A DNA stretch of 46,647 nt from Acetobacteraceae bacterium (GTDB taxonomy: Bacteria; Pseudomonadota; Alphaproteobacteria; Acetobacterales; Acetobacteraceae). The stretch covers positions 1-46,647 of the forward strand of contig JASHQG010000097.1 in NCBI GenBank assembly GCA_030037665.1. The letters run 5' to 3'. The notes under the pieces were generated by a model, which was not told the DNA's origin, made no database searches, and saw only the letters and a list, made by a program, of their open reading frames with translations. Below, one piece after another: positions 34,774 to 36,932 of this stretch; positions within the stretch are counted from its first letter, which is position 1, and the number at the start of each line of letters is the position of its first letter. The translations under genes and the position numbers were made by a program.

Positions 34774-35868
34774 TCAGTCGGCCCCCAAATATTGAGACCT
34801 CAGATCGTCCCACCACTGAGTCGCAAGGATATGCAGCATCGTGCGATCGATTGATACACGCAAAGGGCTGCCGACCGGCAGAGCAATCGCATAGTTTTGC
34901 TGGTCGAAATTGGCATCGAGGACTTCGAGTGAATCGGCGTAGCCCGCGTGCACGAACCACGACATCTGAGGCTTGTCGAAGACGAAAGCGTCCACAGCCC
35001 CATCGTTGACCGCTTTCAGGCCGGCCTCCGGATTTGGAAAAGCCCGAAATTTTATTCCCCTGGCTAAGAGGTAATCCACCGCGGCAGTGTGCGCAGCGGT
35101 TCCGACGCGGACGGCATACAAATCCTGAACACCACGAACATAGCCCTCCAGTTGATAGGTCGTGAAGTACGTGGTGAGACCAGCTGTGAAGACGGCAACC
35201 GACGTTACAGCCACGACCAACCATGTGACCGCGATGATGCGTCCCGGCAGGGTTGTTGGTCCTTTCTCCGGCATGGTCTGGGTCAGAGTGCGGGCAGACC
35301 ACAACAGGCTGCTGCCGAACCCTTCTTTCACACCGCCGCCGAAATGCTCAGTATGACGGCGCTCGAGTAACCAGATGATGAATCCGACCAGGATCACCGC
35401 CGCAACCAACAAACCAAGCATCTCCAGGAACCGGACCGAGAACAGGCCTTCTGCCAGCCTCAACCAGTCGAAAACGGAAAGTCTCCTGACCGCGATACCG
35501 AGGCCAGTTGAGTAATACGGTTGAGAAAAATCGACGCTGTCGTCGCGTCCTGCCGTGACGGTGATCGCGGCAATAGCACCGTCAAGCCTGTGCGCAGCCG
35601 TTCCATTGATGAGTTCATCGAGGCTGACCTCCTTAAAGCGGTACTTCAGATGCAGGTCATCGGCGATCCGCCGCCAGAGCTCGATGCTGATCCCCGACCA
35701 CGCGCCGTCGTCCGACTTCATTGCGAACGGCGGCGAAATTTTTGTGCCGATGACCATGACATGGTCCGTTCCACCGACGAACCCCTGCGCGTCGGCGAAT
35801 GACGTCCCGAGGAAGCTGCCCAGGAGCCCTATGAGGCAGACGGTCCGTGCGAGCTGCCGCCAACCCAT
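34774..35868 (-). CDS. Ionotropic-glutamate-receptor-like protein with atypical pore
   Basis: The protein has 364 residues and a signal peptide (MGWRQLARTVCLIGLLGSFLG...ADAQG); ATG 35868 is preferred to an upstream TTG at 35904. The layout is that of prokaryotic GluR0. Ligand-binding lobe S1 covers about 35-130, with Arg108 in TAGRDDSVDFSQPY at the position that binds the amino-acid alpha-carboxylate in iGluRs. M1 is at 147-168, the pore loop and filter at about 184-204, and the inner helix at 211-236 (VFTAGLTTYFT, like SYTANLAAFLT of animal receptors). Lobe S2 follows at 245-360, with Asp295 in DAFVFDKP. The filter reads TLTQTMPEKGP and lacks the TVGYG of K+-selective GluR0. Ligand, ion and conductance are unknown. 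Confidence 0.85.
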   Translation of the reverse strand: MGWRQLARTVCLIGLLGSFLGTSFADAQGFVGGTDHVMVIGTKISPPFAMKSDDGAWSGISIELWRRIADDLHLKYRFKEVSLDELINGTAAHRLDGAIAAITVTAGRDDSVDFSQPYYSTGLGIAVRRLSVFDWLRLAEGLFSVRFLEMLGLLVAAVILVGFIIWLLERRHTEHFGGGVKEGFGSSLLWSARTLTQTMPEKGPTTLPGRIIAVTWLVVAVTSVAVFTAGLTTYFTTYQLEGYVRGVQDLYAVRVGTAAHTAAVDYLLARGIKFRAFPNPEAGLKAVNDGAVDAFVFDKPQMSWFVHAGYADSLEVLDANFDQQNYAIALPVGSPLRVSIDRTMLHILATQWWDDLRSQYLGAD

Positions 35869-36362
35869 CACCGGTTGGACCACCGGGCGACAGCAACCCC
35901 GCAACTAGCCGGCCCGCAACAAGCCGGGTGCCGATCGTGCGTGGCGGCGGGCGCACCGAGTGGCGATGGGCGTCCTGCAAACACTGCCGACCCGTCGCGC
36001 ATCGTGTCGTTTGCATAGCGTCGTCCGCCGCGCCGATACCTCCGGTGCGTGAGGCCGGTCCACGCCACGTCATCGCTCCTGTCGCGTTTGCAGGCACAAG
36101 AGAATCGCATCTCCGGGGCTCACGCAACCACGACGCAACAGTCGCCCTTGGCGTTTCGCCCCACGATATCGGCGGGTCGGCCAGGGTAGAGGGGGGCCAG
36201 GGTAGAGGGGGGCCAGGGTAGACGGGGTGTGGCCGCCCTCACTCCGGTGAACGGTGCCGCCTGCGACGGCGGCGGCGCGGTGATTCTTCCGCTTTCCGTC
36301 GACGGTCCACTCGCTCGGCGGATGCGACAAACCGCCGGCTTACAGCCAGGTATCCATTCATT
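35869..36362. other. Intergenic region with a tandem repeat
   Basis: No gene is supported between the receptor start and the truncated permease stop. The main structure is the 16-base tandem repeat at 36181-36228. The frames here are shadows with no motifs. Confidence 0.5.
36181..36228. repeat. Three tandem copies of a 16-base unit
   Basis: The unit CCAGGGTAGAGGGGGG occurs at 36181-36196 and 36197-36212 without change. A third copy at 36213-36228 differs near its end (C for G, T at the end). No gene covers it. Confidence 0.9.
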
Positions 36363-36932
36363 TCACCGGCGCCGAGCCAGCCAATTTGCAACGATTAACA
36401 TCAAAATCGACAGCGACATCATCAGGGTTGCCGCGGCAGTGATGGTTGGGTCGAGGTGTTCGCGCAGTCCGACAAACATCTGCATCGGCGGTGTCCGTTG
36501 TTGCGGTCCCGCGAGAAAAGACGCAATGACCAACTCATCGAACGAAGCGACGAACGCAAAGGCGGCGCCCGACAAGACGCGCGGGAGGATCAGGGGCAGC
36601 ATCACGCGCCGAAACGCCAGGAGTGGGTGCGCGCCGGAAATGGCCGCAGCGTGCATCAGCATGTGATCGAAGTTGGCGAGGCTCGCGCCTACAGTTACGA
36701 CGACGAATGGCGACGCAATCGTTGTCCGAGCGATCATGATTCCGACAAAGGTGTTGGCCAACCCGATCGGGGCGTAGAATTGGTAGGCACCGACGGCGGT
36801 AATGATAACCGGGACAATCAGAGGCGAGATCAGCACCGCTGCGATACTGCGTCGGGCCGGCATGCGCGGGCTCGAGAGAATGTCGCCGAATGCAGCGTAC
36901 AAAGAAATGCCGGCCGGCTCGATGAGCGACAC
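36363..36932 (-). pseudogene. 5'-truncated ABC permease, PotC type
   Basis: The frame encodes about 189 residues covering the last two thirds of a spermidine/putrescine-type permease: ISPLIVPVIITAVGAYQFYA, TIASPFVVVTVGASLANFDH, the ATPase-contact (EAA) loop AAAISGAHPLLAFRRVMLPL and the C-terminal helix LMMSLSILMLIVANWLARRR. Normal PotC/PotI proteins have about 265 residues. The first two helices are missing, and the sequence upstream (to 37096) has no continuation in any frame. Partner permease, ATPase and binding-protein genes are absent. It is most likely a remnant. Confidence 0.75.

Follow-up and report, generated by a model that had tools for sequence, protein, structure and literature searches.

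A clade of alphaproteobacterial ionotropic glutamate receptor homologues with a fixed glutamine at the Q/R/N position in place of the K+ filter

In animal ionotropic glutamate receptors (iGluRs), one pore position, the Q/R/N site, separates the permeation of AMPA and kainate receptors (Gln, edited to Arg) from that of NMDA receptors (Asn). The passage from a K+-selective ancestor to the non-selective, Ca2+-passing receptors of the synapse is usually argued from the bacterial GluR0 and the eukaryotic members alone, and a 2025 study of animal receptors took the bacterial ancestor to be GluR0, with a K+ filter only (PMC12226733). GluR0 of Synechocystis (slr1257) has a signal peptide followed by the order S1-M1-P-M3-S2, and its pore is K+-selective and carries TVGYG. 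Ger et al. (2010) described 22 prokaryotic iGluRs, of which 12 carry the K+ filter (the GluR0-type Group 1) and 10, their Group 2, lack it; Group 2 retrieved human receptors more readily (PMC2950845). The protein described here has precedents, as it fits the definition of Group 2: both are bacterial (Group 2 in part alphaproteobacterial), with S1-TM-P-TM-S2 topology, a P region without a recognisable K+ filter, a conserved Arg in S1 and a conserved Asp in S2. However, Group 2 comprised 10 sequences with P regions that the authors "do not recognize", and the main text of that work mentions neither a Gln clade of single origin nor the equivalence of its filter residue to the Q/R/N site (PMC2950845). 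What is new here, and well supported, is a clade within this known kind that has a fixed Gln on the Q/R/N column, an evolutionary point that can be tested. In the open-licence literature we found no report beyond Ger et al. of a bacterial fixed Gln or Asn at this column, or of such a receptor in rhizobia; a precedent in subscription journals is possible, for example among early prokaryotic GluR sequences.

The window analysed here is a stretch of 46,647 nucleotides from an Acetobacteraceae bacterium (contig JASHQG010000097.1). Its genome falls in a family with Roseomonas-type members, and receptor pores from other genomes of that family are identical to pores in named Roseomonas/Acetobacteraceae records, in keeping with this placement. 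Its minus strand carries, at 34774-35868, the gene of an iGluR homologue of 364 aa counted from an ATG start. An alternative upstream TTG at 35904 would give 376 aa, and the reading frame is intact over 34774-35904, with neither stop nor frameshift. An initial annotation had placed this ORF correctly, leaving its strand unstated, and had read in it the iGluR order S1-M1-pore-M2-S2, which Pfam and AlphaFold return as S1-M1-P-M3-S2. Three Pfam families matched above their curated cut-offs, SBP_bac_3 (6.8e-23, split over 51-374), Lig_chan (4e-12, at 166-263) and Lig_chan-Glu_bd (2.3e-9), and this is the sole intact Lig_chan gene of the 6.5 Mb assembly. The same genome has a degraded copy (L030) on contig C247 (3835-4204), reduced to S1 in two frames with 57% and 78% identity to the window protein; genes for branched-chain amino-acid ABC ATPases lie beside it on the opposite strand.

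The AlphaFold2 model, built with 58 homologues (pLDDT 91), runs in the order S1, M1, pore helix, loop, M3, S2, all features lying on the minus strand; residues are numbered from the ATG. Residues 1-27 (MGWRQLARTVCLIGLLGSFLGTSFADA, 35788-35868) read as a probable Sec signal peptide, within which the model has a helix at 3-20. Alignment to NpGluR0 (2pyy) and GluR0 (1ii5) places the S1 half of the ligand-binding domain (LBD) at ca. residues 37-128 (35485-35760) and the S2 half at ca. 242-364 (34777-35145). Between them lie M1 (145-169, 35362-35436, also covered by the Lig_chan match), a re-entrant pore helix (180-195, 35284-35331, clade consensus WWSAxxMTQ), a loop (196-206) and the inner helix M3 (207-241, 35146-35250). 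This is the arrangement of the iGluR family, a solute-binding domain of family 3 halved by an inverted pore module of M1, re-entrant P-loop and M3. The LBD alone superposes on the NpGluR0 core with Z 28.3 and on GluR0 with Z 28.1. Arg108 (35545-35547), which had been proposed as the ligand Arg, does fall on the Arg that is conserved in S1 of GluR0 and occurs without exception in 58/58 homologues, and Asp298 (34975-34977) is conserved in at least 90% of them; by homology these two hold the alpha-carboxylate and the alpha-amino group of the ligand (PMC2950845). The gate motif VFTAGLTTYFT in M3, whose resemblance to SYTANLAAF had been remarked upon, aligns with that stretch of GluA2 and is conserved in the clade as FTA[GS]xTSxLT.

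Full-length profiles matched GluN2D (5e-41), GluA2 (3e-40) and also delta-1, E-values that exclude a chance resemblance. The whole-chain Foldseek matches were AMPA receptor LBD-TMD chains over ca. 370 columns, with a large rmsd because the LBD and the pore hinge differently. Unlike the AMPA receptors (GluA1-4), GluN1 or plant GLR3.4, however, the window protein ends with S2 and has neither an amino-terminal domain nor M4 nor a cytoplasmic tail.

The pore also stands as a channel by itself. Taken without the LBD (98 aa), it matched Lig_chan in 42/42 clade members and Ion_trans_2 in 31/42, and a profile of these 42 pores found GLR3.4 (2e-12), GluN1 (4e-8), GluA2 (7e-8) and KcsA (2e-7). Modelled alone (pLDDT 81), the module superposed best on AMPA transmembrane domains (92 residues at rmsd 2.1, Z 13.0); NaK and CNG-type channels followed within 1 Z unit. 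Since the pore alone matches channels both by profile and by structure, it is a pore-loop channel module and not a set of unrelated helices on a binding protein, which was the contrary case that the initial annotation had raised. For the same reason it is very improbable that the gene encodes a membrane-tethered solute-binding protein of an amino-acid ABC transporter. Such a protein would account for SBP_bac_3 being the strongest domain, for the NCBI-type models giving GlnH-like names only (every one far under its own cut-off) and for a BPD_transp_1 permease ORF (36363-36932, minus strand, 189 aa) upstream on the same strand, but its binding domain would not be split by a module that matches channels on its own. 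The permease ORF is short and may be a remnant; downstream of the receptor gene are Der and BamB genes, on the plus strand. Among 80 homologous loci no neighbour recurred outside close kin (maximum 8/80), and the genes beside the window gene do not accompany any of its nearest homologues. In addition, the model has no cytoplasmic domain. Together these two observations point to a stand-alone channel, rather than to an ABC component or a sensor working through a partner.

The departure from GluR0 lies in the filter. The segment TLTQTMPEKGP (residues 194-204, 35257-35289) replaces TLTTVGYGDxxP, as had been noticed from the sequence. We compared a set of 80 named relatives, chiefly Bradyrhizobium, Rhizobium, Mesorhizobium, Kaistia, Rhodopila and Roseomonas, in which the K-type MTTVGYGDKAP aligns without gaps with MTQAGAAQNAP, MTQASTGHRGP or similar. 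The window protein and its nearest relatives (L033 and L059, 53% identical) have a filter shorter by one residue, LTQTMPEKGP and MTQAGPDETP. At the column of Gln197 (35278-35280), which is that of the first Thr of TVGYG, Gln was found in 41 of the 42 alphaproteobacterial representatives left after removal of near-copies, and Arg in the remaining one. The 12 K-type rows all have Thr there, within an invariant TTVGYGDK (12/12). The Gln had been described as lying close to the Q/R site of AMPA receptors, but the profile alignments put it exactly on the site, a stronger result than was claimed: with profiles made separately from the Q set and the K set alike, this column receives the Gln of the GluA2 Q/R site (AFM-Q-QGC) and the Asn of the GluN1 N site (VLL-N-SGLGEGAP). 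GLR3.4 differs in having no Gln or Asn aligned there (SHRENTV). The likeness to AMPA receptors goes further in the window protein, with an acidic residue at +4, a Pro at +7 and an ungapped stretch from the Gln to PGR (QTMPEKGPTTLPGR vs. QQGCDISPRSLSGR). As a rule for the clade the acid at +4 had to be rejected, being present only in the window protein, L033 and L059, those with the shorter loop. The pore of another relative (L117, MTQRVD) is of the Q type. Two sequences, from a Hyphomicrobiales MAG and Afipia sp. 64-13 (L123, L136), carry a natural change of Gln to Arg at the Gln197 column (AMTRRGNVDYSP). In animal GluA2 the same change at the Q/R site is made by RNA editing.

Beyond the Gln the loop is variable in the Q clade, with a column identity of 0.47 against 0.93 in the K-type, as would be expected if K+ selectivity had been given up; the W, P, G-R and gate motif are retained throughout. 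It could be argued that these pores still pass K+ selectively, with TVGYG-like sites formed by the backbone carbonyls of a TQxGxxx loop. The clade is indeed close to the K-type receptors. Its loop equals TVGYGD in length in most members (TTVGYGDKAP vs. TQAGAAQDGP), some of which keep one Gly. Yet no member retains V, Y or the second Gly, column identity has fallen to half that of the K-type, and the loop in the window protein is shorter and contains Met-Pro (TMPEKGP), so that we consider a K+-permeable filter improbable.

So as not to reason in a circle, we left the pore columns out and built the trees from S1 and S2 alone. In the LBD tree the 41 Q members and the R member fell on one side of a branch with support 98/99, and a wider set gave the same grouping with support 100/99. 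A single origin of the Q filter thus appears well supported, judging from trees that contain no pore columns.

A second clade lacking TVGYG was seen in another alphaproteobacterial family, f23 (L043, L151, L154, L155, L174-L199). Its motif, WWALNLVVNGGFEERxP, has Asn in the Gln197 column in 30/30 non-K members, and this Asn aligns with the GluN1 N site. K-type members are present within the same family, where 62 of the 248 genomes sampled had a Lig_chan gene above cut-off. In the wider-set LBD tree the Asn members form their own branch (support 99/83). A single joint clade of the Q, R and N rows was rejected (AU p 0.0002, with L140 left out of the test); therefore, the Gln and Asn filters belong to separate lineages. 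Both amide-filter lineages likely descend from K-type receptors, as suggested by the placement of the surrounding K-type rows, a reading that depends on the root. Whether the K+ filter of bacterial iGluRs has been replaced at least twice at the Q/R/N position, by a fixed Gln in Acetobacteraceae and Hyphomicrobiales and by a fixed Asn in a second alphaproteobacterial family, is in our judgement evenly balanced. A special kinship with the animal receptors was also considered and rejected. The bacterial Q, K and other profiles give eukaryotic pores nearly the same scores (46/43/45 bits for GluA2, 40/41/38 for GluN1), and for this reason the shared Gln is no evidence of descent.

The way in which selection has acted along the gene bears on whether the pore is in use. 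We counted codon changes in 102 pairs of closely related Q-clade members. The pairs share ancestry, so that the values are averages and not independent samples, and they come from Bradyrhizobium/Rhizobium-type relatives rather than from the branch of the window protein (nearest relative 53% identical). The pore helix that carries the Gln had a dN/dS of 0.008, M3 one of 0.034 and the remainder of the filter one of 0.036, against 0.116 for S1 and 0.121 for S2. The ranking is clear, with constraint strongest in the pore. The initial annotation had left two functional options, a non-selective or Na+/Ca2+ channel or a non-conducting sensor. Some iGluR-like proteins may work without conduction, delta receptors being a debated case, and a sensor that keeps the iGluR fold with a dead channel and signals via a partner protein would be in accord with the variable filter loop of the Q clade. 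That the pore helix with its Gln, the filter and M3 are all more constrained than the ligand domain is hard to reconcile with such a sensor, as is the retention of the W, P, G-R and gate motif throughout the clade, and there is neither a cytoplasmic domain nor a conserved neighbour that could be the partner. We think a sensor unlikely and favour a conducting channel without K+ selectivity, because selection holds the pore most tightly and the protein lacks a cytoplasmic domain. There are two points against the favoured channel: a loop so variable after the Gln is also compatible with a filter that has lost its importance, and the filter of the window protein is one residue shorter than in most of the clade.

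The gene product is probably one subunit of an amino-acid-gated cation channel of the prokaryotic iGluR family that lacks K+ selectivity. After secretion, the N and C termini would both be periplasmic, with the S1/S2 clamshell built around an inverted pore of the K+-channel type (M1, P-helix and loop, M3). Four such subunits would assemble; an amino acid held by Arg108 and Asp298 would close the clamshell, which would pull M3 open and let cations through the pore. Where GluR0 has TVGYG, this pore has a helix ending in the Gln of the Q/R/N position and then a variable loop; discrimination between K+ and Na+ as in GluR0 is therefore not expected, and the channel would be non-selective, divalent ions possibly passing. 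Our search of the literature found no electrophysiology for any member without TVGYG. As to physiological use, we can only guess by analogy with GluR0 at an amino-acid-triggered depolarisation or an adjustment of volume or ions. In Synechocystis, GluR0 serves to regulate volume under high K+ (PMC13099474), but the analogy is weak, since the GluR0 pore is K+-selective.

If both clades conduct, non-selective and possibly Ca2+-permeable amide filters arose independently of animals. Two bacterial clades that share their fold with the K-type, in which TVGYG has given way to a fixed Gln or a fixed Asn, together with one natural change of Gln to Arg, would provide a natural and testable record of the loss of K+ selectivity in glutamate-receptor channels. 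The proteins of these clades are small (ca. 360 aa, without M4 or an amino-terminal domain) and their hosts include culturable Bradyrhizobium, Rhizobium, Roseomonas and Kaistia, so the rule that the residue at Q/R/N sets permeation can be tested in minimal proteins. They are also candidates for amino-acid-gated depolarisation in bacteria.

The window protein is one of a large clade and not an isolated oddity. The Q type was found in at least 70 named species, and Lig_chan was above cut-off in 22 of the 391 genomes sampled around the window; the clade is patchy in distribution yet well populated. Other filters exist besides. One small genome has four tandem iGluR homologues in ca. 5 kb (L036, L054, L057 and L058, G372:C64:4287-9400) that show an additional filter type (LNEAGDVST, TSANIDEGET). 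In L139, L140 and L167 the loop is much shorter (TLATQADQMPRHW, TLVSAGEMPHHW) and represents yet another type; two of these were among the strongest Lig_chan matches of the phylum sample; the filter of L140, ATQADQMP, is short and unrelated to the Q type.
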